The translations under genes were made by a program, and so were the position numbers. The notes under the pieces were generated by a model that made no database searches, was not told the DNA's origin, and saw only the letters and a program-made list of their open reading frames with translations. This document shows, in pieces, positions 26,650 to 50,059 of a stretch of DNA of 64,000 nucleotides. Every line of letters begins with the position of its first letter. The first letter of the stretch is position 1. The stretch comes from Methylocystis sp. KS32 (GTDB lineage Bacteria > Pseudomonadota > Alphaproteobacteria > Rhizobiales > Beijerinckiaceae): positions 372,001-436,000 of the forward strand of contig PHSQ01000003.1 of the NCBI GenBank assembly GCA_002862095.1, given 5' to 3'.

Positions 26650-28557
<1,908 letters not shown>

Positions 28558-31114: not shown

Positions 31115-32236
31115 ATGGCGAAGCGCGACTATTACGAAATTCTAGGCGTCTCCCGAACGGCCACCGACGTCGAGATAAAAATCGCCTTTCGCAAGTCGGC
31201 GATGGAATGCCATCCCGACCGCAATCCCGGCGACAAGGCGGCCGAAGCCCGTTTCAAGGAATTGAACGAGGCCTATCAGGCCTTGTCGGACGCCCAGAAA
31301 CGGGCCGCTTACGATCGCTTCGGGCACGGCGCCTTCGAGCAGGGCGCGGGCGGCTTCTCCAGCGACGGCTTCTCGGCCTCGATGGCCGATATTTTTGAAG
31401 ACCTGTTCGGCGATGTGATGGGCCGCCGGGGCGGGCGGCAGGGCGCGAACGGGCGCGAGCGCGGGTCTGATCTTCGCTATAATATGGAGATTACGCTGGA
31501 GGAGGCGTACACGGGGAAGGCGGCTACGCTGCAAGTGCCTACCTCCGTCACCTGCGACGCCTGTGGCGGCGCGGGCGCCAAAAAAGGGTCGAAGCCGAAA
31601 ACCTGCACCACCTGCGCCGGTTACGGCAAAGTGCGAGCGCAGCAGGGCTTTTTCGCGATCGAGCGGATCTGTCCGACCTGTCAGGGGCGCGGCGAAATCA
31701 TCGATAATCCTTGCCCGTCCTGCGCGGGTTCCGGCCGCAAGGCGCTGGAGCGCACGCTTTCCGTCAATGTCCCGGCCGGGGTCGAGGACGGGACGCGCAT
31801 TCGATTGGCGGGAGAAGGCGAGGCGGGACTTCGGGGCGGGCCGGCGGGAGACCTTTATATATTCCTCTCGGTGAAACCGCATCCCTTCTTCCAGCGTGAC
31901 GGAGCGGACCTCTATTGTCGGGTGCCGATCTCAATGGTGCGCGCCGCCATCGGCGGCGAAATCTCGGTCCACGCCATCGACGGGTCGGAATGTAAGTTGA
32001 AGATTCCCGAAGGCGCCCAATCGGGCCGGCAGCTCAAGATCAAGGGCAAGGGAATGCCCGTGCTGCGCGGACGGGATCTGGGCGATCTCCACGTCCAGAT
32101 CAGCGTAGAAACGCCGCAGAACCTGACCAAGCGGCAACGCGAATTGCTCCAAGAATTCGAGCAGGAATCCTCCCATCATACCCATCCCGAGGCCACGGGC
32201 TTCTTCGCGCGGATGAAAGAGTTGTTTGGAAAATAG
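31115..32236 (+). CDS. dnaJ: chaperone DnaJ (Hsp40)
   Basis: [40 protein letters not shown]; four zinc-finger CxxCxGxG-type repeats. Confidence 0.99.
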
Positions 32237-35234: not shown

Positions 35235-36707
35235 CTATTCCCGCGGCAGCGGCGGCATCAGAGCGCGCAAGGGATGATCCGGCCAGCAGGGCTTTGAGCC
35301 GAGGTTCGAGGCCGGGTTCCGCGCCGCGCCCATCAGGCCTGCCGGCGCCGCTTCGACCCTGGCGATGTAATTGGTCGGAACTCCCCTCGGGTCGAGTTGC
35401 AGCGACGCGGTGAGCAGATCGCAGGAACTGACGGCGAAACTGGGCTGGATCAGCACGTTTTTCAGCTCCAGTCCCGGCGTGAAGGCGCCGAGCGAGACAA
35501 TCCAGAACACTGCCTTTTTCGCCCATGTTTCATCCGGCCGCAGTTTCAACGCGACGTCCGCGAAGACAAAAGCGAGGATGAAAAGCGGCGCTATGGACGC
35601 CCGCATCTCCAGATCGTTGAGGGGGCCAAAGTTGAATAAAGGCAGAGCGAGCAAAATCACGATCGAGGCGATCAACAGGCCTTGCAAGGGCCTCGCCACC
35701 CGGTCCCATAGCCAGAACAAAACAAAGGCGTGCGGAATTTCGACAACGATGAAAAGCGCATATAGCCACGGGTTCAGCGTAGACATCCCGTGAGAAAGAG
35801 AGCTGGCGTCGATGGTGAGATAATAGGCGATGGGCAGAAAGCCGGTCGCGGCGAGGACGCCGAGCCACAGTCGTTTCGAGGTCAAGAGTTTCACTCGGAC
35901 GGGCCAGGCGAGCAAAGGCATGTAGACGAGGCCCGGCAAAACCGCCAGCGGCGACCACATCAGCAGCGCCGCGAACATAACGCCCAGAAAGGCGATGTCG
36001 ACTTCCTCTCTCGGCGCGAGCAGGCAAAGCGCCGCGAAGAAGAAGCCGGGCAGCGCGTGGTTCGGCGCCCAGAACAGCTGGGTGACGGTGCTCGAATATT
36101 TCCATAATTCGAGATCGGGCCTCACCACGCCGGGCGCGCGCAAAAACTGGTCGTAGAGCGCGGGCAATATATCGAGCCCGCTGAAGACGGCGATGAGCAG
36201 CGCCAGCCGCCAACCGCCCGCCAGAGAGCCGACAATGTAAAAGACGATCCCGCACAGCAGCGTATTCTGTGCGAGGAGGGCCACATGGGCGCCCTGAACC
36301 CCGAGTAATTTTCCCGCCGCCGCAGGCAGGAGATACATGCCGAGCGGCGCGCGCAGGAAATATTCGACGCCGCGATAGGAATAATAAATCGGCGCCTGGC
36401 GCTGCGTGAGGTCGCCAAGAACGGCGTCGCGGATCAGCCAGTCAGAGTTCGGGTAAAAAAGATGCGTCTCGCCGCCAAAAAGCAGGATCGTGGTCGCGAG
36501 CGCGAGGCAGATCGCCAGCAGACGAGCATCAATCGGCGCGTCGAGAAAAAGAGCTTTGCCCGCGGAGGCGCGCGTGGAGACGAGGGCGGCCGACAATGTA
36601 ACGCCGAAGACGATGATGAGCGCGGGCGCCCATTGCAGGCTCGCTGCGAAAACCAGATCGGATGCGATGAAAAGCAGCGCGGCGAAGACGACAAGCCAGC
36701 GATTCAT
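35235..36707 (-). CDS. polytopic membrane protein of unknown function (490 aa)
   Basis: About ten hydrophobic segments; ETHLFYPNSDWLIRDAVLGDL in the first large loop; no recognised family. Confidence 0.75.
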   Translation of the reverse strand: MNRWLVVFAALLFIASDLVFAASLQWAPALIIVFGVTLSAALVSTRASAGKALFLDAPIDARLLAICLALATTILLFGGETHLFYPNSDWLIRDAVLGDLTQRQAPIYYSYRGVEYFLRAPLGMYLLPAAAGKLLGVQGAHVALLAQNTLLCGIVFYIVGSLAGGWRLALLIAVFSGLDILPALYDQFLRAPGVVRPDLELWKYSSTVTQLFWAPNHALPGFFFAALCLLAPREEVDIAFLGVMFAALLMWSPLAVLPGLVYMPLLAWPVRVKLLTSKRLWLGVLAATGFLPIAYYLTIDASSLSHGMSTLNPWLYALFIVVEIPHAFVLFWLWDRVARPLQGLLIASIVILLALPLFNFGPLNDLEMRASIAPLFILAFVFADVALKLRPDETWAKKAVFWIVSLGAFTPGLELKNVLIQPSFAVSSCDLLTASLQLDPRGVPTNYIARVEAAPAGLMGAARNPASNLGSKPCWPDHPLRALMPPLPRE

Positions 36708-37726: not shown

Positions 37727-38554
37727 TCAGGGCAAAGCGTTTCTCACGTCCGAATGACGATTTTTATTCGCCAACGCGCGCCAGGCCAGAGTTGCAAAGA
37801 GCATGGAGCACTGCGCGTAGCGCGCGGTCAGACGGCGCGGATCGTTCGCCAGGCGCCAGAACCACTCGAGCCCCGCCATTTGCACGCCGCGCGGCGCCCG
37901 GACCATGTTGCCGGAGATGAAATCCAGCGCCGCGCCCACGCAAATGAATCCGACCTCCGGGCAATGGCGGAGCAGGGCTTCGGCAAGCAATTCCTGCTTT
38001 GGGGCGCCAAGCGACAGAACGCAGATGCGCGCGCCGGAGTCCTTGATACGCTGGGCGAAGGCCTTCGCGGTTTCCTCTATCCGATCCACGCGCACATGCG
38101 GCGTGTCCGCCCCCGCGATCGCGAGGCCGGGATAGCGTTTTATCAAGATATCCAGAGCCTTGCGTTGGGACGCATAGCTCGGCCCAATGAAAAAGAGAGG
38201 CAGCCCTTCCTTGGCCGCGCGCGCGCAGAGCGGTTCGACGAGATCGGCGCCGGTGGTGCGCTTTACCAATGTGCCCTGCTGGCGAAGCAGCCAGACGATG
38301 GGCCATCCGTCCGCGCTCACCAAATCCGCGCGGCTGTAGGCCGCGCGAAAGCGACGATCCTCTTTCAGTTTCACGAGGTGATCGAGATTGATTGTGAATA
38401 GCGTGAAGCCGCGCCGCGCCTTCGCGCGGTTCGCCATGATCTCGAGAGCGGATTCCATGTTCTGAAGATTAACCGAGATTTCCGAGTTCGAGGGGACCGG
38501 CAAGCTCTCGGAGAAGACAGAGGACTGAAGAGCATACATGAGACTCACACCCAC
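37727..38554 (-). CDS. WecB/TagA/CpsF family glycosyltransferase
   Basis: FTINLDHLVKLKEDRRFRAAYSRADLVSADGWPIVWLLRQQG...LSLGAPKQELLAEALLRHCPEVGFICVGAALDFISGNMVRAPRGVQMAGLEWFWRLANDPRRL. Confidence 0.93.
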   Translation of the reverse strand: MGVSLMYALQSSVFSESLPVPSNSEISVNLQNMESALEIMANRAKARRGFTLFTINLDHLVKLKEDRRFRAAYSRADLVSADGWPIVWLLRQQGTLVKRTTGADLVEPLCARAAKEGLPLFFIGPSYASQRKALDILIKRYPGLAIAGADTPHVRVDRIEETAKAFAQRIKDSGARICVLSLGAPKQELLAEALLRHCPEVGFICVGAALDFISGNMVRAPRGVQMAGLEWFWRLANDPRRLTARYAQCSMLFATLAWRALANKNRHSDVRNALP

Positions 38555-39055
38555 ACCGCTGCATTCAATGCTTTACGGAGCCGATCGACGGATGCTCGCT
38601 TTTGGAACATCGCTCGACCCCGGGCGTAACGCAGCAAGCGAAACGCCATCGGGAGCCATTGAAGCTGGGGGGAATTGCTGATCACGTACAAGCATATATT
38701 AAATCAGGTTAATTCTCGTTCATAATTGCAATGCGGAAAGGCCGGAAGCCGCGCAAACCCGCGAATTAACCCTGCGCGCAACGACCGGGGCCGGCTCTGC
38801 GATTTGAGGCGTCGTCGCGCGACCAGAGTCCGCGCGATGGAAAACCTCGACTTAATTGTCCCGTTTTGACACGGATTTCGGAGTTTGGGCCGTCCCGAAA
38901 AGCGACGCCCGATACGCCTGCCTTTATGCTGGCGTGGAAGTATTTTGTATAAACATGTCTGGTATCAAATTATCGTGGAAAGCAGAGGGAGTTCCCTGTG
39001 TTCGCGTTGACGGTCGACGGTAGGCCGATCTCGCCATCATTCATGAGACAGCAGG

Positions 39056-40516
39056 ATGAAAGATCACACGGGCAAGCTGCTCCGCAATACGATCCTCTAT
39101 ATCCCAGCGCAGTTCCTTCCTCCCGCCATCCAATTCGCCACCACCGTCGGCTGGACTTATCTTCTTGACCCCGCCTCGTTCGGCATTGTCACCTTTGTGA
39201 TCGCCGCGCAGGAAATCACCGCCTATATGGGAATAACCGCCTGGTCGCTTTATGTGCTGCGCTACCATACGCGGTTCGTTGACGGCGATGCGGACCGCTT
39301 CCGCCTGATGGACAACCGCATGGCGGTCTACGCCGTCTTGGTTCAAATCATGATGTCCATTCCAATCCTGTGGACGCTCGGCGCCGCCACCGGAGCATCT
39401 CTTTTCCTCGCGACGGCGTTTTACCTCACCACCAGAACCCTGCTCATGCACTACGGCGAATGGGCGCGGGCGGAGCACAGGATCGCTCCCTATACGACAG
39501 CGCAATTGATCGGAACGGGAGCGGGTTCGGGCCTGTCCATTATCGCCATTCTATCCTTGGGGCCGCTTCCCGCCGTGGCGCTTGGAGCCCAGGCGCTCGG
39601 CCAATTGGTCGCGCTCCTGATCCTTTGCGGACAGATCGGGGTGCGCCTTCGTCTAGGCGTCTTCGACGCCGCGATTTTTGGCGAGGTCCGACGCTATGGC
39701 GTTCCCTTGATTGTCGGCGGCGTCCTTGGCTGGGCGGCCGGCAACGGTATTCGCGTTTTGGTGCAATATTCAGAGGGGCCGGTCGCGCTTGGTTTGATGT
39801 CGGTCGGATGGGGATTGGGACAAAGGATCGCCAGCGTTCTATCAATGCTGCTCACAGCCGCGGCCTATCCGCTCGCGGTCGGCAATCTGGAGCGTGGCGA
39901 CCGGCGAGGAGCGCTAAGCCAGGTGTCGTTGAATGGAGTCTTTCTTTTGGCTATTCTCGCGCCCGCTTTCGTGGGTGTGATGCTGCTGTCGAAACCTCTG
40001 ACGAACTTGCTCATCGCGGAGAATTTCCGCGAGACGACGATCGTGATCTTGCCCATAGCGATGCTTGCCGCAGCGTTACGCGGGCTGCGTCTCCACACCA
40101 GCGATCAAACCATGCTTTTGCTGGAGCGCACGGATGTTTCGATGTATGTCACCATGATTGAAACCGCGCTGAATCTGGTGTTTTGCGCCATTGGACTGCA
40201 CTTTGCCGGGGTTTATGGCGCGGCGCTCGGCATGTTGCTCGGAACGGCGATCGCCTGCGTGGGCGGTTTCTCCTACTCCTTCGCATTGCTCGGCCTGCCA
40301 ATTCCCCCGTCGGGGACTCTCATTCGAATTCTATTGACGACGGGCGTCATGGGATTTGTCGTGCGCTCTTTGCCCGAACCGACGACGATCCCTGCGCTTG
40401 TCATCGTCATATTGGCTGGCGTCCTCTGCTACGCCGTTTTCATCGTCCTCGCGTTTCCGGCCTGCAGAGTCCTTTTGGAGAAGCAGGTCCGGCGGCTTTC
40501 GGGAGCGCCCGCTTGA
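39056..40516 (+). CDS. Wzx-like polysaccharide flippase
   Basis: Polytopic MATE/PST-type protein, 12-14 hydrophobic segments, in a glycosyltransferase neighbourhood. Confidence 0.85.
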   Translation: MKDHTGKLLRNTILYIPAQFLPPAIQFATTVGWTYLLDPASFGIVTFVIAAQEITAYMGITAWSLYVLRYHTRFVDGDADRFRLMDNRMAVYAVLVQIMMSIPILWTLGAATGASLFLATAFYLTTRTLLMHYGEWARAEHRIAPYTTAQLIGTGAGSGLSIIAILSLGPLPAVALGAQALGQLVALLILCGQIGVRLRLGVFDAAIFGEVRRYGVPLIVGGVLGWAAGNGIRVLVQYSEGPVALGLMSVGWGLGQRIASVLSMLLTAAAYPLAVGNLERGDRRGALSQVSLNGVFLLAILAPAFVGVMLLSKPLTNLLIAENFRETTIVILPIAMLAAALRGLRLHTSDQTMLLLERTDVSMYVTMIETALNLVFCAIGLHFAGVYGAALGMLLGTAIACVGGFSYSFALLGLPIPPSGTLIRILLTTGVMGFVVRSLPEPTTIPALVIVILAGVLCYAVFIVLAFPACRVLLEKQVRRLSGAPA

Positions 40517-41640
40517 ACGCGCCGCTCTTCGATGCGCGAACAAACTCGAATGCGCCCGGCGCGAGACGAGTCGCGTTCTTTCACCAAAACGACGTCTTTG
40601 GCCGACAGGGAGGAATCGAGCGTTATCTCGCCACGCTCCTGACCTCCTCGCAGGGACGGGCGGCGCTGGTGAGTTCGGAAATCACGCAACCCTTCGAGGC
40701 TCATTTTTGCGTCGAGGAATCTGGGTCGCCTCGGCTTCCCCAATGGATGCGCTACGTCGCCGCTCTGTTTAAAAATCGGCGCGACATCGCGGCCTTTCTC
40801 GAAGACCGCCGGATCGCCGTGCTGGAATTCAGCCGGCCCGAATATCTTCTGGCCGGATGGATGTTCAAGGGCAAGCGCGTCGTTACGATTCACGGCACCG
40901 GCCCTGATCCCGGCAATCGGGCGCATTACGTCGTTCACCATCTCTGTTGCTTCCTGTCGCCGTTCCTCGCGGACAGGGTGCAGGTCGTGGGCCGAGACCC
41001 GAGCGGCCTGCCGAGGATCGTCCAATTTCTGCTCGGAAAGCGCGTCGCTTATATCGACGCCTGGTATGATGACAGGTTTAGCCCGGCGCCGTTTCCGGGG
41101 CTGGACAATCGACCTTTGAAGGTCTTTTACGCGGGGCGCATCGCCGCGCAAAAGAATCCCGAGTTGCTTTACGCCATCATCCGCGAAGTCTCGCGAACCG
41201 CGCCGGGGCTGTTCGAATTTTATTACTTCGGTTCGGACTACGAGGAATTTTCGAAAGCCGGCCTTTCGGAACTCGTGACGAACAAGGGTTTCCTCGGACC
41301 CGCCGAATTGGCGCGGGAAATCGGGGACTGTCACCTGGGCCTTCTGTGCTCCGGCTATGGGGAGGGTTCGCCTTTCATCGTCGTCGAGTCCCTGGCCTGT
41401 GGACGACCCTTCCTGCTGCCGCCGCTGCGCACTCTCGTCGAAGCCTATGCGGGCTTCGCGGGGATTCGCATTGTCCAAAGCTATGAGGTCGAGGAGTTTG
41501 TTCGCGCGCTCATGCGGGTTCGCGAGGATATTCTCGACCTGCGGATCGAACCGGAAAAGATCGCGGCCCAGCTGTCCGATCGATCGCAATCACGCGCCGC
41601 GCGACGTCTGATCGATTCGTTGATCGGCCTGGCGGAGTGA
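40513..41640 (+). CDS. glycosyltransferase, GT4-like
   Basis: VAFFHQNDVFGRQGGIERYLATLLTSS; LKVFYAGRIAAQKNPELLYAIIREV; LGLLCSGYGEGSPFIVVESLACGRPFLLP. TTG start at 40513 inferred from the 4-bp overlap with the flippase gene. Confidence 0.88.
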   Translation: MNAPLFDARTNSNAPGARRVAFFHQNDVFGRQGGIERYLATLLTSSQGRAALVSSEITQPFEAHFCVEESGSPRLPQWMRYVAALFKNRRDIAAFLEDRRIAVLEFSRPEYLLAGWMFKGKRVVTIHGTGPDPGNRAHYVVHHLCCFLSPFLADRVQVVGRDPSGLPRIVQFLLGKRVAYIDAWYDDRFSPAPFPGLDNRPLKVFYAGRIAAQKNPELLYAIIREVSRTAPGLFEFYYFGSDYEEFSKAGLSELVTNKGFLGPAELAREIGDCHLGLLCSGYGEGSPFIVVESLACGRPFLLPPLRTLVEAYAGFAGIRIVQSYEVEEFVRALMRVREDILDLRIEPEKIAAQLSDRSQSRAARRLIDSLIGLAE

Positions 41641-41685
41641 TTTTGGCGGCCGAGGCGTGCTCGGTCAAATCGGGAACAAAGCGCG

Positions 41686-42744
41686 ATGTTGATCTTCGAC
41701 CTGGTGCTCGCCACGAGGCGGAAAGAGAGAACGGGGGTCGAGCGCTACGGCGTTCATCTCTTCAACGCGGTTCGCGCCCGGCGCCCCGACACCCTGGCTT
41801 TCGTTCGCGACGCGGAAGATTTCGAAGACAAAACGAGAGTCATTCCCGTTCCAAACGTCTATCGCGGTTGGTCTACACTGCCCTGGCGGATCCGCCAATT
41901 GGGCCTTAAACCGAGCGCGGTGATTTTTCCGACGGCGCCGGCAAGCCCCTTGTTCCTGCCTTCCAATATGAGGCTTTGCCGCATAATCCACGACGCCTTC
42001 CCCTGGAGCAGGGAGCGCGCGATGCCTTTGAAGGGCCGGTTGCTTTATCGCGACGTCGAGAGCCTCATGGCGCGCCGCTACGACGTGCTGCTGGGAACGA
42101 CGGAACCGGTCGCCCAGGAATTGCGCCGCCAATTGGGACGAGCGGACATCGCGCCTGTCGGCAATGCGCCCGGCATCGACCTTCTGTCGTTGAAGGAGGC
42201 GCCGACTCACGGCTTGCCGGAGGATTTCATTCTGGCGGTCGGCACGGTGGAGCCGAGAAAGAATTACGAACAGCTCTTGTCTCTCGTGGAGAGCGATGAG
42301 CCGGGGGCGCTGCCCGTCGTGCTGGTGGGGCGGCCCGGTTGGGGCGATATTGTCGAGCGGGTGCGAGCAGCCTGCGAACGCAGGCCCGAGCGCCTGATCT
42401 GGCTGCGCGATCTCACCGACGACGGCGCGCTTCTGTGGCTTTACCGTCGGGCGAAGTGTTTCCTGTCCCTTTCGAAAGCCGAAGGCTTCAATATGCCGCT
42501 GGTGGAAAGCGCCATGTGCGGAAGTCCGGTAATCTGCTCGGATTTGCCAATCCATCGGGCGGTCGCACCGCCGTGGGCCCGCTTCGTGGGGGCGAACGAT
42601 TCTTCTTGCGCGATATGGGAGTTCGCGCGAAACGCATCGCGTCCGGAGCAAGAGGCGCTGCAAGCCTATCGGACGCGTTACAGTTGGGACGGCGTTGCGT
42701 CCTGCTTGCTCGCTTCGCTTGGTCGGGAGGGGGCGGATGAATGA
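41686..42744 (+). CDS. glycosyltransferase family 4
   Basis: MLIFDLVLATRRKERTGVERYGVHLFNAV; ILAVGTVEPRKNYEQLLSLVE; FLSLSKAEGFNMPLVESAMCGSPVICSDLPIHR. Confidence 0.92.
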   Translation: MLIFDLVLATRRKERTGVERYGVHLFNAVRARRPDTLAFVRDAEDFEDKTRVIPVPNVYRGWSTLPWRIRQLGLKPSAVIFPTAPASPLFLPSNMRLCRIIHDAFPWSRERAMPLKGRLLYRDVESLMARRYDVLLGTTEPVAQELRRQLGRADIAPVGNAPGIDLLSLKEAPTHGLPEDFILAVGTVEPRKNYEQLLSLVESDEPGALPVVLVGRPGWGDIVERVRAACERRPERLIWLRDLTDDGALLWLYRRAKCFLSLSKAEGFNMPLVESAMCGSPVICSDLPIHRAVAPPWARFVGANDSSCAIWEFARNASRPEQEALQAYRTRYSWDGVASCLLASLGREGADE

Positions 42745-43969
42745 AGTTCCTCACGCGCCGCCCGGCGAGAAAAAACACATGATCACTTTCCAACGCCAGC
42801 CGACGCTTATTTTTTATATTCACGCCCTGGCCGGCGGCGGAGCCGAAAGAGTGATGGCGCGCCTTGCGTCGAGCTACGCGAGGCGTGGCGCGCGCGCGCT
42901 GCTGGTCATGGATCACGAAGCCTCGGAGTGGGCGAGCATCCTCGACGAGCGGGTGGAAAGAATCCTGCTGCCCAAAGGACATTTTCGCGGCGCCCTCGCG
43001 CTTTCCCGGTTATTGTTTCGCGTCTCGCCGGACATCAGCATATCCGCTCTAAGCGCAAATAATTTGAAACATGTCCTCGCGGCGACGCTGGCCGGGACCC
43101 TTCGTCGAGCCGTCATCACTTTTCATGGCTTCGCGGAGAACGAACCCAAGAAGCTCGCCCAATTCAGTTATTGGCTGACGCCGGTTTTAACGAGCCTCGC
43201 CGCGAGAAACGTGGCCGTTTCGGACGCTTTGAAAGAGGATTTGATCCGGCGCTTCCATGCGTCGCCGGATCGGCTCGAGACAATCCATAATCCCGCGTCT
43301 CCTGAGCATGCGCATCCGCCTGTTTCGCCGCAAAACCTCGCGAACCGCGAGGCCATCGTCGTCGCCGTGGGAAGGCTCGTCGTTGACAAAGGCTTCCTGT
43401 TTCTGGTGAGAGCCTTCGCGAAGGTAACTTATCCTGGAGCGAAGCTTATCGTTTTGGGAAAAGGACCGGACCTCCCAAGGCTGAGGAGCGAAGCGGAGCG
43501 TCTTGGTGTTGCGGAGCGCGTCGAGTTCGCAGGTTATGTCGCGGAGATCGACAGCTATTTATCGCGGGCGCGTTGTTTCGTTTCGCCGTCGTATCACGAG
43601 TCTTTTGGGCTCGCGATCGTCGAGGCGCTCGATTTCGGCCTCGCCGTCGTTTCGACGGATAGCGGCGGACCGCGCGAGATTCTGAATTCACCCGCCGTTG
43701 GAAAAATAGTTCCCCTGGGCGACGAAGCGGCGATGGCGACCGCGATCTCGGAAAGCCTGGCGGCGCCAGGAGATCCCTCCGTGCGTCAGCGTCGATCGAG
43801 GGATTTTACTCTGGAAATCGCCCTGCGTCGCTACGATAAAATATTCGAGGAAATTTCGCCTTCCCTTGCTTTGCAATTGCGATCTCCCGGAACGCCGCCG
43901 ATTGATGGAGGTTTTCGCGCGGGCGGCGAGTCGTTGGAGAACATAAACAGCAGCAAGATCGCGAAGTGA
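42737..43969 (+). CDS. glycosyltransferase family 4
   Basis: IHALAGGGAERVMARLASSYARRGARALLV; VAVGRLVVDKGFLFLVRAFA; CFVSPSYHESFGLAIVEALDFGLAVVSTDSGGPREIL. ATG at 42737. Confidence 0.92.
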   Translation: MNEVPHAPPGEKKHMITFQRQPTLIFYIHALAGGGAERVMARLASSYARRGARALLVMDHEASEWASILDERVERILLPKGHFRGALALSRLLFRVSPDISISALSANNLKHVLAATLAGTLRRAVITFHGFAENEPKKLAQFSYWLTPVLTSLAARNVAVSDALKEDLIRRFHASPDRLETIHNPASPEHAHPPVSPQNLANREAIVVAVGRLVVDKGFLFLVRAFAKVTYPGAKLIVLGKGPDLPRLRSEAERLGVAERVEFAGYVAEIDSYLSRARCFVSPSYHESFGLAIVEALDFGLAVVSTDSGGPREILNSPAVGKIVPLGDEAAMATAISESLAAPGDPSVRQRRSRDFTLEIALRRYDKIFEEISPSLALQLRSPGTPPIDGGFRAGGESLENINSSKIAK

Positions 43970-45180
43970 TCGAACATCGTCGTCTTGGAGGCGAGGCCCG
44001 TGGCCGAGCTGACGATGACGATGAAGAAGACGAACAAAAACACGGCGCGGGGGCGCGCCTGTCGCCAGAGTTCCCACAAAAGCGCGAACAGACCGACGAC
44101 GAAAAACAGCGTCATGATCGCGCCGTATTGGAAGATCATCGCGACCCAGGTGTTTTCGATGCCGACCGCGATGCCGAGCGTGCGCTGCGTGGAAGAGACC
44201 AATTGCGGATCTGGCCCCATCAGTAAATCCGCGATGTCGAAGGCGTCGAACATCTTCATCATGATGATCCGCGCCTCGGCCGAGCCGTTGTCGTCGATGA
44301 AGCGTCCGATCAAATCGTCGAAGACGCCTAGGGCGATCGTATAGGCGACGGCGCCTGTCACGACTGGCGCGATGAACATCAGGAGGATCAGGCGACCGAT
44401 ATCGAATTTCCTCCCCAGCAGAATCAGGGCGAAATCCTTGAGAAAAAAACCCGACACAATCAGGCCGGACATGAGAATCGAGGTTCTGCCGCCAAAGGCC
44501 GCGAGACCAAATATCTGGACGCCGATCAGAAACGCGCGAACGATCGGCGTCAGGGCTTCGTCGGCGCCGAAGAACAGACACAGCATATAGGCCGCCGAGG
44601 TGGCGGCGTTCTGGAGCGGATGGCCCAGCAAGGCGGTGGAGCGATAATCCCCGGTTAAATCCTCTCCGGCGATCACGTAAGGAAAAAGTCTGATGTGGGT
44701 GAGGAATTCGAAAACGCCGATCACGGCGTTTACGAACAGGATCAGGTGAATGAACCTTCGCAAGAATTGGCGCGTGTCGGTCCGAAGGTCGTCGTGCATG
44801 AGCAAAGCGACGAAGCCGATGAAATAGGTTTCTATCGGGGCGGCGATTGGCGCATGTTGGACGAGAGCGGCATAGGCGATCAGCAGGAGCCAGGAAAAAA
44901 AGAACAGAGCCGCTCCGGGGAGTCGTTCCGCTAGACCCCGGATGAAACCAAACGGCTTTGATTTTCCAGCGAGTTCGGCCGCGAAGGCGAGCGCCATGAG
45001 GTAGGTCGCGGGATGGAGCTTCTGCCATAGGGAGCCGCCCACGGAATCGTAATTGACCCCGATAAAGCCCAGAGCCAGCGACGACACGGAAAAGAGCAGC
45101 ACAATCGATGCGACGAACAGGATGGAGGCGAGGCGCTGGGCGGTGAACCGGGCGGCCGGCGAGGCGAGGGCGAAGCTCAT
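43831..45180 (-). CDS. O-antigen polymerase/ligase-like membrane protein (Wzy/WaaL type)
   Basis: Polytopic; large central loop and many TM helices; flanked by Wzz-like and GT genes. ATG at 45180. Confidence 0.8.
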   Translation of the reverse strand: MSFALASPAARFTAQRLASILFVASIVLLFSVSSLALGFIGVNYDSVGGSLWQKLHPATYLMALAFAAELAGKSKPFGFIRGLAERLPGAALFFFSWLLLIAYAALVQHAPIAAPIETYFIGFVALLMHDDLRTDTRQFLRRFIHLILFVNAVIGVFEFLTHIRLFPYVIAGEDLTGDYRSTALLGHPLQNAATSAAYMLCLFFGADEALTPIVRAFLIGVQIFGLAAFGGRTSILMSGLIVSGFFLKDFALILLGRKFDIGRLILLMFIAPVVTGAVAYTIALGVFDDLIGRFIDDNGSAEARIIMMKMFDAFDIADLLMGPDPQLVSSTQRTLGIAVGIENTWVAMIFQYGAIMTLFFVVGLFALLWELWRQARPRAVFLFVFFIVIVSSATGLASKTTMFDHFAILLLFMFSNDSPPARKPPSIGGVPGDRNCKAREGEISSNILS

Positions 45181-47435
45181 GCCCGCATCCGGTTCTCGAC
45201 TCTGACCGGTCCGCTCTGTCGCCGGACCTTCGCATCGGCGCGATTGCGCCCGAACAGAATGCAGGCCTGGCGCTCGTTCTGCGCAGTCGACTCGACCATG
45301 ACGAGCGCGTCGATTTCCTCGGCCGGCGGCGGATTTTGATTTTGCTCCAGCAGCGCGCCGCAATCGAGAAGGATGAGATCGAATTTGGATTTGAAATAGG
45401 GCTCGCGAGGCCAGCCTTGTTCGAATGTGGCCATCAGAACCTCGCCGCCCGAGTTTCTGTCCTTATGAAAATTATATAGGGCGCTTTCGAAGCCAAAGCG
45501 CAATTTCACCCGCCGAAGGTTCGCGAGGAGAGGCGTTATATTCGGACGTTTTGCGCTGCAATCGATCAGCAGAACCCGGTCTCCCTGGGCGCAAGCCATG
45601 AAGGAGAGGGAAAGAGCGACGGTGGAGACGCCGGCGCCTTCGGCGCTCGCCCCAATGGCCACGATGGGCGTGGGGGAGGCGACGCCGCCCGACCAGAGCG
45701 CGTCGTATATTTTCTCGATCGCTTGTCGATAAGGCGCGCGGGGGCTTTGCATCGTGATTCTGACGCCCGAGACGAGGGCGCGCGCCTTTGTCTCGCGAGT
45801 ATTGGCGCTGTCGCCGCCGGCGACCAGGGCGGGCAGCGCTACGATCACGGCGGCCGGCTCTTGCGAATCCAGAGCTTTCCAGCGGCTCTCGAGGGCTGGC
45901 GCGGTTCGCTCTAACGCGGTGCGATCCGCAGGGGGGGCTTTCCTTTGTCCGACCGCGCCCTGAGAGGAATCGGAAGGGCTCTCCTTCGTGGATTGCTGGG
46001 GGCGATCCGCGTCGTTGGTCGACGCTGTGCGCTTGCGTTCGCGAAATTCGAGAATCAGAGCGGCCGCAATCCAGATATTGAGGCTGGCGGCGAGGGCGAT
46101 GATCAGCGCGGGCAGGGTCTTCGGGCTGACCTTGCTTTTCAAAGCCGTGGGTTGATCGATCAAGACGCCGTTGGGCGACGACACCACTTCGCGGTGCACG
46201 TTTTCCCGCGCGGCCAGCGCTTTCTCGTATCGCTCACGCACAGCCGCCGTTTGTCGTTCGAGTTCGTTATATTCGAGGCGGTCGCCGCCGGTATTGTTGA
46301 TCGACGTTTCGAGATTGGCGACGATTTGCTCCGCCAAGCGTTCCGTATTCCGCGCGGTTTTGAGGTCATTCGCCCCCGCCGCCGAAATCCGGCCCAATTC
46401 GGCCTTGATCTGCGCGCGCAGGGAGGAAAGCTGAGCCTTGATGATTGTGTATGACGGATGGCGCGGACCCAGCGTCGATTCCGCATAGGCCGCGTCGCGC
46501 GACAAGGTTGCGTATTCGCCACGAAGCTTTTCGATAAGCGGGGATTTGATCGCCTCGTCCACGTTTTCGATGGAGCCGCCCGCGCGGATGGCGGCCTGGA
46601 TCTGGGCGTATCTCGCTTCCAACTCCGCGCGTTTGCCACGCGCGTCCACGAGGGCGGAATTCGCGTCCTTGAGTTGCTGTTCCAGCGGCGTATGACCATC
46701 GGTCATAATGATCGAATGCGTCTTGCGGTAATCCTCGAGCCGCTGCTCGGACTGTTGCAGCCGCGTGCGAAGATCGGCGATTTTCTTGTCCAGCCAATCG
46801 ATCTCGCGGTCGGCGATGTCGTCGCCCATTTTGGTCTGGGTTTCGTAATAGGCGTTGGCGAGGCCGCGGGCGAGACGTTCGGCCTTTTCGGGGCTCGACG
46901 CCCTCACCTCCACATCGATGACATAGCTCTTTTCGTTGCGCTTGGTGGTGATGGTCTTGCCGAGATTTTCAACAATCCCGTCGATGGTCGCGTCGGATTT
47001 CGGCGCCGCCATGCCGACGAGGGATTTCAGTCTCGCGAATATGCCGGGCTTGCCCGGCGCGAATTCGGGATCGACGCGCAGCTGCTCGTCGGCGATCAAC
47101 CGGCGGAGCACCTCGTTCGAGGTCAGGAGGCGCATCTGGCTTTCTATGAGCCCCGTGTCCGGATTTTGAGCGATCGGTTGCGCGTCGACGCCGATGGGTG
47201 GGCGCTCTCGTGTATCGACCAGAAAGGACATCGTGGCGGCATAGCGCGCCGGGGTGATGAGAATATAGACGCCGGCTAGCGAAGCCGACAACGCCAGCGC
47301 CGGGACGAGCAGACGCCACCGGCGGACGACCGCGCTATAGAGGTCGCCTATGTCGATAGTCATGTTCGAATCGGCGGACGAGACCATGTTGGATCGCGAT
47401 CGCGCTGACTCGATGTCGCCGTCGGTGCTGGTCAA
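45177..47435 (-). CDS. polysaccharide co-polymerase (Wzz/GumC-type) with degenerate C-terminal BY-kinase-like domain
   Basis: DIGDLYSAVVRRWRLLVPALALSASLAGVYILITPARYAATMSFLVD; long coiled coil; C-terminal IGASAEGAGVSTVALSLSFMACAQGDRVLLIDCSAKRPNITPLL. Confidence 0.9.
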   Translation of the reverse strand: MTSTDGDIESARSRSNMVSSADSNMTIDIGDLYSAVVRRWRLLVPALALSASLAGVYILITPARYAATMSFLVDTRERPPIGVDAQPIAQNPDTGLIESQMRLLTSNEVLRRLIADEQLRVDPEFAPGKPGIFARLKSLVGMAAPKSDATIDGIVENLGKTITTKRNEKSYVIDVEVRASSPEKAERLARGLANAYYETQTKMGDDIADREIDWLDKKIADLRTRLQQSEQRLEDYRKTHSIIMTDGHTPLEQQLKDANSALVDARGKRAELEARYAQIQAAIRAGGSIENVDEAIKSPLIEKLRGEYATLSRDAAYAESTLGPRHPSYTIIKAQLSSLRAQIKAELGRISAAGANDLKTARNTERLAEQIVANLETSINNTGGDRLEYNELERQTAAVRERYEKALAARENVHREVVSSPNGVLIDQPTALKSKVSPKTLPALIIALAASLNIWIAAALILEFRERKRTASTNDADRPQQSTKESPSDSSQGAVGQRKAPPADRTALERTAPALESRWKALDSQEPAAVIVALPALVAGGDSANTRETKARALVSGVRITMQSPRAPYRQAIEKIYDALWSGGVASPTPIVAIGASAEGAGVSTVALSLSFMACAQGDRVLLIDCSAKRPNITPLLANLRRVKLRFGFESALYNFHKDRNSGGEVLMATFEQGWPREPYFKSKFDLILLDCGALLEQNQNPPPAEEIDALVMVESTAQNERQACILFGRNRADAKVRRQSGPVRVENRMRA

Positions 47436-47610
47436 TGGCGTGAAATCCGCGCGTTGCCGATCATTGGTTTTCGTGTCTCGCGAGTTCGAGAAAAATTAAC
47501 GTCCTATGGTTACGAATTAATTAGCGATTGGAGACCTTTGAAGCGTCCCGGCGACGTAAGGGGGCGAGCGCGAAGAGGTTCTTCGATCACTATTTAGAGA
47601 AGAGCGCTTC

Positions 47611-48558
47611 ATGGACGAGTCGACCAGCCAAACCAAAACCTTCGTGTCGGATTCCCAGCCCCGAATATTGGTTTTCGCGCAGTGGTTCGGGGCCTGGCCC
47701 GAATGGATGCGGTTTTTTCTGGAATCCTGCCGTTGGAATCCAACCATAGATTGGCTTTTGATCGGCGACGCGCCTGCGCCCGCGGAGCTTCCCGGCAATG
47801 TGCGCTTAAAGCAAATCGGCTTTGCCGATTATCGCGCATCTATCGCCAAAAAGCTCGGCCTCGCGCCGCTCTGGAACAACGCCTACAAGCTTTGTGATTT
47901 CAAGCCTGTCCTCGCGGCCATCCACGAGGAGGAGCTAGATGGATATGATTTCTGGGGCTATTGCGACATCGACGTGATCTTTGGCGACATAAGGCGCTTT
48001 TACACTCCCGAGGTTCTCGCATGGGACGTCGTGACCACTCACGCGCATGTGGTCGGCGGACATTTCACTCTGCTGAGGAATAAGCCGCGCATGACCGGCG
48101 CTTTCCGAAAAATACCATTCTGGAAGCGGCTATTGTCCGTCGCGGAGCATAAAAGCTTCGACGAACGGGTTTTCTCGCGGCTCTTCATGCCTTTTCCGCC
48201 GAGACAGAAATGGCGGCGGCTGTTCACGCCTTTTGTGGGCGGCGCGCTGATGGTCGAACGCTACTCCACCAACATCCCGCCGCTACGCTGGATCGACGGC
48301 GGGACCGACTGGCCGGAAGAGTGGTGCTGGGACCGGGGAAGGCTGACGACCTGCAAGACAGGGGATCGCCAATTCTTGTATCTTCATTTCTCGCATTGGC
48401 AATCCAACCGCTGGACCCGCGAGGCGGTCGCGCCGTGGCGCGCAATCGAGCGACTGGACAATCTGCCGCCGGGACGGTGCGAGCATTTCGTCATCGGCGC
48501 GCGCGGCTTCACCTCGCGGGGAGAGGCCGGCTCGGGGCCGGGGGAGGCGGCGGCCTGA
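47611..48558 (+). CDS. DUF6625-like putative glycosyltransferase
   Basis: ILVFAQWFGAWPEWMRFFLESCRWNPTIDWLLIGD; LCDFKPVLAAIHEEELDGYDFWGYCDIDVIFGDIRRFYTPEVL. Confidence 0.85.
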   Translation: MDESTSQTKTFVSDSQPRILVFAQWFGAWPEWMRFFLESCRWNPTIDWLLIGDAPAPAELPGNVRLKQIGFADYRASIAKKLGLAPLWNNAYKLCDFKPVLAAIHEEELDGYDFWGYCDIDVIFGDIRRFYTPEVLAWDVVTTHAHVVGGHFTLLRNKPRMTGAFRKIPFWKRLLSVAEHKSFDERVFSRLFMPFPPRQKWRRLFTPFVGGALMVERYSTNIPPLRWIDGGTDWPEEWCWDRGRLTTCKTGDRQFLYLHFSHWQSNRWTREAVAPWRAIERLDNLPPGRCEHFVIGARGFTSRGEAGSGPGEAAA

Positions 48559-48562
48559 TCGC

Positions 48563-50059
48563 TCACCAGCGCGCGCGGGCGCCCACGATGTCGATCGTCT
48601 CGATCCCGCCAGCGACGTTCAGAGTATGCGCGCCGTGGGCTCCCAGAGTGCGGGGCGGTTTGACGCGGGCGCGCACGGATTGACGAAACTCGTGTTCATC
48701 CAACCGCTCCACCGCACAAAGCGCGATGCCCCCGCCATAGCCCTCGGAGCAATCCTGCGCCGGGCGCCATAACGCGCCATTCCGCGTGAACATCGCACCG
48801 GCCGGCCTCGCGCAACTGGCGTCGATCAAAACGGGATTGGCGATATGCGCGGTCCAGGGACCGGTCAGGCGATCGGCGTGATAGAGGCAAAGAGCGTCCC
48901 AACTCGACAGGCCGTCCCTGGCCACGGTCGCGAAAAGCCAAAGCCGTCCGCCATGTTCGATCAGCGTCGCGTCCGAGGCGGGCGTATCCTCGACCAGAAT
49001 TGCTTCCCTCGTCCAGCGGTCGGGGAAGCGGGTCGCCCGGTAGAGCTCGATCCGGTTCGCCGCGCAGGTCTCCGGGATCATCCAGATTTCGCCGTCTCGC
49101 GCGAAGACCTGCGGATAAGAGAGGTGCCAGGGCTGCTCCATGACCGGGAGGGGCGGACCGGCGGTTCCGTCTTCGAGCAGTTCGAACGCCGTCAGCACGC
49201 CTTTTCCGGCGGCGTAGGGAAATTCCTCGCAAAACAGGAAGGCGCTTCCCTGGTGCGAAAAAACGAAAGGATCGGCGAAATATCTCTTTCCGTCGTCGGG
49301 CAGGTAATTATAGGACTGCTCGGGCCAGGAAAGCGTGTCGGTCATCGTCTCGCCGGCGTTTGTTCGACGCCAGCCAACCCGAAAATGTTCGCGGTGGACG
49401 GCGAACCGGGTCAACCGATTGGCGATTTTCGCGCCGAGGGCGCTGAGAGCGAACATGGCCGGCGAGCCGGGAGGCGCGCCTTGCGGGGCGGTCGGATCGG
49501 CGAAAGCCAAGGGCCGCCCGCTCGCGATGCGATCCACAGCGTTCTCCAGCAGGGAGGCGAGGCTTGCCGTCACTGCCCGAACCCCCGGCGTGAACAGCTT
49601 GCGGTTTTCGAGAGCCGGCGTCGCGCTGGCGATACAGCGCGGGGCGTCGCCGGGCTCTATCAGCATGAGGTCGATTTGCGGCGCTCGCCGCGCCAGAAGC
49701 GCGTCCGCCGCGGCCGCGTCCCGCGCCCGCAGGTCGAAAAGAGGTTTCAGCGTCGGGGCTGAAACCGGCCCCGGATTTGTCCCGGTAAGGTCGATGATGA
49801 GGTCTGGGGAGCGCGCCAGACAGTTTCTCGGCGCGGTGGCCTTCGAGCAATAATGCGAAGCGCTCGCGGGCAGCCGATAGAGCCGCCGCTCCAGTTCCAT
49901 CAGCCTTCGCGGGCCGGAAGGTCCAGCCGCGCCGGGCGCGCGATTGCAAGCAACTATATGCCCCTGTCGCCTAAGTCTTTCCGCGAGCGCGACACGCCAG
50001 TTCTCCAGCTCTCCCGCGGCGGATAGCAATTCTATGCGCAAAGAGCGATGTTCCGCCAT
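48563..50059 (-). CDS. GINT1 N-terminal-like beta-propeller protein with extra N-terminal domain
   Basis: KRYFADPFVFSHQGSAFLFCEEFPYAAGKGVLTAFEL...QPWHLSYPQVFARDGEIWMIPETCAANRIELYRATRFPDRWTREAILVEDTPASDATLIEHGGRLWLFATV resembles the glucosamine inositolphosphorylceramide transferase 1 N-terminal family. Confidence 0.8.
   Translation of the reverse strand: MAEHRSLRIELLSAAGELENWRVALAERLRRQGHIVACNRAPGAAGPSGPRRLMELERRLYRLPASASHYCSKATAPRNCLARSPDLIIDLTGTNPGPVSAPTLKPLFDLRARDAAAADALLARRAPQIDLMLIEPGDAPRCIASATPALENRKLFTPGVRAVTASLASLLENAVDRIASGRPLAFADPTAPQGAPPGSPAMFALSALGAKIANRLTRFAVHREHFRVGWRRTNAGETMTDTLSWPEQSYNYLPDDGKRYFADPFVFSHQGSAFLFCEEFPYAAGKGVLTAFELLEDGTAGPPLPVMEQPWHLSYPQVFARDGEIWMIPETCAANRIELYRATRFPDRWTREAILVEDTPASDATLIEHGGRLWLFATVARDGLSSWDALCLYHADRLTGPWTAHIANPVLIDASCARPAGAMFTRNGALWRPAQDCSEGYGGGIALCAVERLDEHEFRQSVRARVKPPRTLGAHGAHTLNVAGGIETIDIVGARARW

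Follow-up and report, generated by a model that had tools for sequence, protein, structure and literature searches.

The uppABCDEF genes of Agrobacterium have been described as an incomplete Wzy-type cluster (PMC4018554), and in the Hyphomicrobiales the genes for the unipolar polysaccharide (UPP) are distributed over several genomic regions (PMC12727192), with the polyprenyl hexose-1-phosphate transferase (PHPT) and the exporter Wza encoded apart from Wzx and Wzy (PMC4018554, PMC12727192). Alphaproteobacterial PHPTs make undecaprenyl diphosphate-linked glucose (UndPP-Glc), and the WecGs of Hyphomicrobiales, Caulobacterales and Rhodobacterales can replace HfsJ (PMC11340318). Here we describe a locus at positions 37727-50059 of a 64,000-nucleotide stretch of the Methylocystis sp. 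KS32 genome (contig PHSQ01000003.1, positions 372,001 to 436,000; hereafter the window), where a Wzx flippase, a Wzy polymerase of the VpsF family and a Wzz-type polysaccharide co-polymerase (PCP) are encoded together, as is characteristic of the Wzx/Wzy-dependent pathway, along with a WecG-type transferase, three GT4 glycosyltransferases, a DUF6625 protein and a GINT1_N protein. We propose, with a probability of roughly 55%, that this locus encodes the inner-membrane half of a Wzx/Wzy pathway that is split over the genome, with a PHPT gene on contig C6 and a Wza gene on contig C3 as its partners and a surface polysaccharide as its product.

The KS32 genome (G000; 3.36 Mb in seven contigs, 92.8% complete) encodes five PHPTs (PF02397) and four Wza proteins (Poly_export, PF02563), all of them outside C1, the contig that holds the window. 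Both functions required by a Wzx/Wzy pathway are present in the cell, and because the starter and exit genes lie elsewhere in the genome, the locus is neither incomplete nor of a new type, and is instead a new example of a known scattered pathway. The first-pass annotation of the window had recorded the lack of PHPT, Wza and nucleotide-sugar genes, none of which occurs among the nine genes of the locus, and had regarded the pathway as reliant on genes elsewhere; this was borne out by the whole-genome search it had recommended, while any reading of the missing functions as absent from the genome was not. The inventory further includes one WecG, three Wzz proteins (Pfam) and three Wzx-like matches, one of which falls below its cut-off. 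The identities of the genes, the inventory of the genome and the patterns of synteny, co-occurrence and linkage are observed, while the pairing of partners, the sequence of sugars and the biological role are inferred.

One PHPT gene is an orphan on C6 (PHPT_C6, G000:C6:394657-395988). On C3, a 20-kb region (locus L027, G000:C3:322000-341900) encodes a PHPT, a short UppC/HfsD-like Wza (G000:C3:333427-333990), a Wzz with a degenerate kinase domain, a GNAT acyltransferase and a polysaccharide deacetylase, with no Wzx, Wzy or WecG in the 20 kb read. Judged by its protein families, this would be a holdfast/UPP-like gene set without Wzx or Wzy, and since it has PHPT, Wza and Wzz but no Wzx, Wzy or WecG, the two loci look complementary. 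As in the UPP system, PHPT and Wza are clustered apart from Wzx/Wzy, and by analogy the locus fits the known split-pathway kind (UPP/holdfast-like). The Caulobacter holdfast (hfs) system shares with the locus a WecG-type second transferase, an HfsF-like Wzx and a Wzz, and its HfsD-like Wza, GNAT and deacetylase have counterparts elsewhere in the KS32 genome; however, the gene order is not hfsEFGHCBAD, the polymerase is of the VpsF type and Wzx reaches only 86.8 bits against the HfsF equivalog NF050818, below its cut-off of 700.

The assignment of partners comes from a sample of 120 relatives, in selected members of which we read the 20 kb around wzy. A VpsF-type wzy homologue was found in 17 of them, within a recurring set of genes that comprises Wzz, Wzy, Wzx, WecG, the classes of GTs 1-3 and GINT1_N. 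In five relatives (G056, G062, G082, G047 and G040) a PHPT of the C6 class, of which KS32 has a single member, lies within 5 kb of the polymerase gene, and these linked PHPTs score 398-509 bits against PHPT_C6 and, where compared, about 220-245 bits against the other PHPTs of KS32. Consistent with this linkage, WecG is present in 30 of 31 PHPT_C6-positive genomes versus 60/120 overall (Fisher p = 1.5e-10, kinship ignored), and a C6-class gene is located within 20 kb of WecG in eleven genomes. Among the Wzy-positive relatives, 16/17 have WecG and all 17 have a Wza of the C3 class (76/120 overall), the only Wza class present in every one of them; G054 and G071, which possess a VpsF wzy, have a single Wza each, of that class. 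The interpretation thus shifts from that of the first-pass annotation, as comparative linkage points to the C6 PHPT and the C3 Wza/Wzz/acyltransferase/deacetylase locus.

All nine open reading frames of the locus are open throughout, with host-like codon usage, and were assigned with Pfam and NCBIfam profiles, which placed the genes and families where they had first been annotated:

37727..38554, minus strand: WecB/TagA/CpsF (GT26) glycosyltransferase (WecG), PF03808 156 bits
38555..39055, no strand: divergent intergenic region wecG/wzx of 0.5 kb, without Rfam match
39056..40516, plus strand: Wzx-type flippase, distant HfsF homologue, PF13440 38 bits, NF050818 (HfsF) 86.8 bits
40513..41640, plus strand: GT4 glycosyltransferase 1 (gt1), PF13692 33 bits, orthologue in G025 (L034) 560 bits
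41686..42744, plus strand: GT4 glycosyltransferase 2 (gt2), PF00534 44 bits, orthologue in G025 (L034) 540 bits
42737..43969, plus strand: GT4 glycosyltransferase 3 (gt3), PF13692 111 bits
43831..45180, minus strand: Wzy polymerase, VpsF family, NF038256 290 bits (cut-off 150)
45177..47387, minus strand: Wzz-type co-polymerase with degenerate BY-kinase-like C-terminal domain, PF02706 31 bits
47611..48558, plus strand: DUF6625 protein, PF20330 168 bits
48563..50059, minus strand: GINT1_N protein, PF24793 128 bits

The arrangement suggests the transcription units wzx-gt1-gt2-gt3 (plus) and wzz-wzy (minus, overlapping by 4 bp), with wecG divergent from wzx. The start of gt1 is uncertain, and TTG 40513 would overlap wzx by 4 bp. 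WecG, of 270-275 aa (start ATG 38539 or GTG 38554), is the only PF03808 match in the genome and is expected to add the second sugar onto an undecaprenyl-PP-linked sugar; its T54, N56 and D82 align opposite T37, N39 and D65 of the solved TagA structure 7mpk, which we take to be active-site residues. A recent foreign island was considered and rejected on base composition, as the GC content of the locus (58-65%) is close to that of the remaining window, in which the Rfam scan gave no match. Outside the locus, an ORF at 35235-36707 encodes an apparently membrane-spanning protein of 490 aa that adjoins rpmI-rplT, has no Pfam or NCBIfam match and could be a further envelope gene. The segment 28560-31110, from a DnaK-like gene (26650-28557) to a DnaJ-like gene (31115-32236), is AT-rich (about 48-50% GC) and poor in genes, and gave no match in plasmid and Rfam searches.

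The Wzz protein had initially been described as Wzz/BY-kinase-like, and the BY-kinase part of that description needs refinement. Its P-loop reads EGAGVST where EGKST is expected, so that the ATP-binding (Walker A) lysine is lost, and no tyrosine occurs in its last 60 residues; it therefore lacks both hallmarks of a Wzc-type bacterial tyrosine kinase (BY-kinase), the Walker A lysine and the C-terminal tyrosine cluster. The paralogue on C7 is intact, with EGKST and nine tyrosines over the same C-terminal stretch. The kinase half is probably a pseudo-kinase, to judge from these residues, and since the domain is eroded likewise in every VpsF-linked relative aligned, its degeneration is not a local lesion. 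Control of chain length by tyrosine phosphorylation is thus unlikely, P-loop and tyrosine tail being lost in the relatives as well.

In the pathway that we postulate, a PHPT encoded elsewhere, for which the orphan C6 gene is the best candidate and the C3 PHPT the alternative, would charge undecaprenyl phosphate with the first sugar (probably glucose), and the WecG of the locus would add sugar two, committing the lipid-linked sugar to the pathway. The three GT4 enzymes, perhaps with DUF6625, may then finish a repeat unit with some five sugars or more, five being the number suggested by a single PHPT, a single WecG and three GT4s. Wzx would flip the repeat unit, the VpsF-type Wzy would polymerise it and the kinase-dead Wzz would set chain length by scaffolding rather than by phosphorylation; export would most likely proceed via the UppC/HfsD-like Wza on C3, whose locus lacks its own Wzx, Wzy and WecG. 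As to the product, a holdfast/UPP-like adhesin is somewhat favoured over a free exopolysaccharide (EPS), and assignment to a known polymer is, as first annotated, not possible, the collections searched having yielded no characterised locus that closely resembles this one. The VpsF locus of G071 (L042, G071:C13) adjoins genes resembling a dTDP-rhamnose set, and the PHPT of G045 and that of G047 each have a mannose-1-phosphate guanylyltransferase-like gene as a neighbour, hinting that the sugars differ among relatives.

Comparison across strains, also recommended at the outset, revealed the same gene order between rplT and lptA in the congener G025 (L034), which lacks the DUF6625 gene and carries a methyltransferase gene (L034:8671-9333) between gt3 and wzy. 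At the corresponding site of the window the 3' ends of gt3 and wzy share 139 bp (43831-43969) in tail-to-tail orientation, the C-terminus of gt3 being longer than in the congener and running into the wzy 3' end, and the methyltransferase gene was probably deleted in the window lineage, as the two sequences suggest. In G009 the locus is placed and arranged differently and is not by lptA, and in congeners without it the lptA neighbourhoods read show a different neighbour. The WecGs of most VpsF loci form one clade (support 100/100, not including the G051 copy). Two plasmid genes from Rhodobacterales also belong to it, and it is distinct from the type-A WecG that other congeners carry at one conserved unrelated chromosomal site. 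The locus is thus accessory and variable in position. A Wzy profile built from four sequences matched one metagenome-assembled genome in a scan of genome contigs, and plasmid searches returned distant relatives only of VpsF and WecG.

Several observations weigh against the assignment of C6 and C3 partners. The co-occurrence statistics and p-values take no account of shared ancestry. An encoded Wza next to wzy, which we had considered for the relatives, was dropped after none was found in the 14 genomes examined, so that export via C3 rests on co-occurrence and elimination, and C3-class Wza occurs without a VpsF wzy in 59 genomes. Six of the 17 Wzy-positive genomes have no close PHPT_C6, and in the genus this gene lies in a conserved housekeeping-like neighbourhood and is also present without VpsF wzy, which means that it is not exclusive to the pathway. 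Moreover, the C3 locus is already equipped with its own PHPT and Wzz, the likeness of its genes and of the C6 gene to uppC/uppE is one of protein family, and the count of a single WecG could be wrong in a genome that is 92.8% complete. Alternatively, the locus might make its own secreted EPS or capsule, independently of the adhesin-like locus on C3, which would borrow a general PHPT and exit through a Wza of the C6, C7 or C5 class; we regard this as possible, if less probable than the split pathway. As in EPS clusters, the VpsF wzy of relatives adjoins GH10-like and cellulase-like glycosidases and acyltransferases, and in the VpsF locus of the Aureimonas sp. AU20 plasmid pAU20a a Wzz, a VpsF Wzy (32% identical), a GT4, an acetyltransferase and a glycosidase occur together, although its annotated genes include no WecG or GINT1_N. 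Several members of the genus combine a type A WecG (62-71 bits to the locus WecG) with a C3-class Wza, and the C3 pathway therefore need not use the WecG of the locus. The promonan (prm) system of Sphingomonas sp. LM7, compared by its description, is likewise a Wzx/Wzy-dependent, mucoid EPS with several GTs and a WecG-type enzyme, the latter unable to replace HfsJ (PMC11340318), but its cluster carries the PHPT and the full export set together. A separate EPS sits less well with the C3 Wza being the only class found in all Wzy-positive relatives and with the lack of Wzx, Wzy and WecG in the C3 locus of KS32.

The unlinked PHPT and Wza, the lost Wzz P-loop and the gt3/wzy overlap at the methyltransferase site could also be read as signs of a decaying or non-functional locus, from which partners were split off and a gene was lost. 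This is improbable, as all nine genes have uninterrupted frames and host-like codon usage, degeneration of the kinase domain extends to all VpsF-linked relatives aligned, and Wzy shares 63% identity with its G025 counterpart and retains the invariant residues. Still more remote is an O-antigen locus whose product is ligated by a WaaL-type enzyme to the lipid A core, despite the LptA- and LptC-like lipopolysaccharide export genes that adjoin it and the similarity to Wzy/WaaL noted at first. Of that double label, Wzy was retained and the WaaL identity was dropped, because the polymerase exceeds the VpsF-family cut-off (NF038256, 290 bits vs 150); in addition, the PCP, a long protein that carries a kinase-like domain, resembles exopolysaccharide families (TIGR01005, EpsF) at scores below cut-off, and the G009 locus does not lie by lptA. 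The likeness to VpsF-family loci, named after Vibrio cholerae VPS, is one of polymerase family: Vibrio plasmids gave distant tblastn matches to Wzy (27% identity), and unlike the VPS system the window locus is without PHPT or Wza.

GINT1_N is the least explained part of the locus. Its AlphaFold model (pLDDT 82) consists of a Rossmann-like N-terminal half and a C-terminal beta-propeller, for which the nearest solved folds in Foldseek are GH159, GH43 and GH117 glycosidases (E about 1e-7), and D263, E330 and D363 are its invariant acidic residues. The GT64 domain that marks plant GINT1 was not found, PF24793 alone being above cut-off besides a sub-threshold GH43 match. In the sampled genomes, 19 of 43 copies lie within 20 kb of WecG, a VpsF wzy or a C6-class PHPT. 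A transferase or phosphorylase activity of the propeller type has been proposed for GH130/GT108 enzymes, and it is conceivable, though doubtful, that GINT1_N, which has no evident signal sequence, is a dedicated component of the WecG/VpsF pathway that modifies the lipid-linked repeat unit, possibly as such an enzyme, beside a kinase-dead Wzz acting without tyrosine phosphorylation. DUF6625 is probably a sugar-adding or modifying accessory protein; a sequence search of the PDB found no relative and its structure model is uninformative (pLDDT 36). The literature yielded nothing specific on GINT1_N in polysaccharide clusters, on DUF6625 or on VpsF in Rhizobiales.

Taken together, comparison with relatives can pair a seemingly incomplete polysaccharide locus with a likely starter and exporter, and for KS32 the named partner genes, the C6 PHPT and the C3 Wza, are now available as knockout targets. 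Beyond this organism, VpsF-type polymerases of Alphaproteobacteria are regularly accompanied by GINT1_N, a widespread and uncharacterised protein family of the propeller type, and by a degenerate kinase domain.

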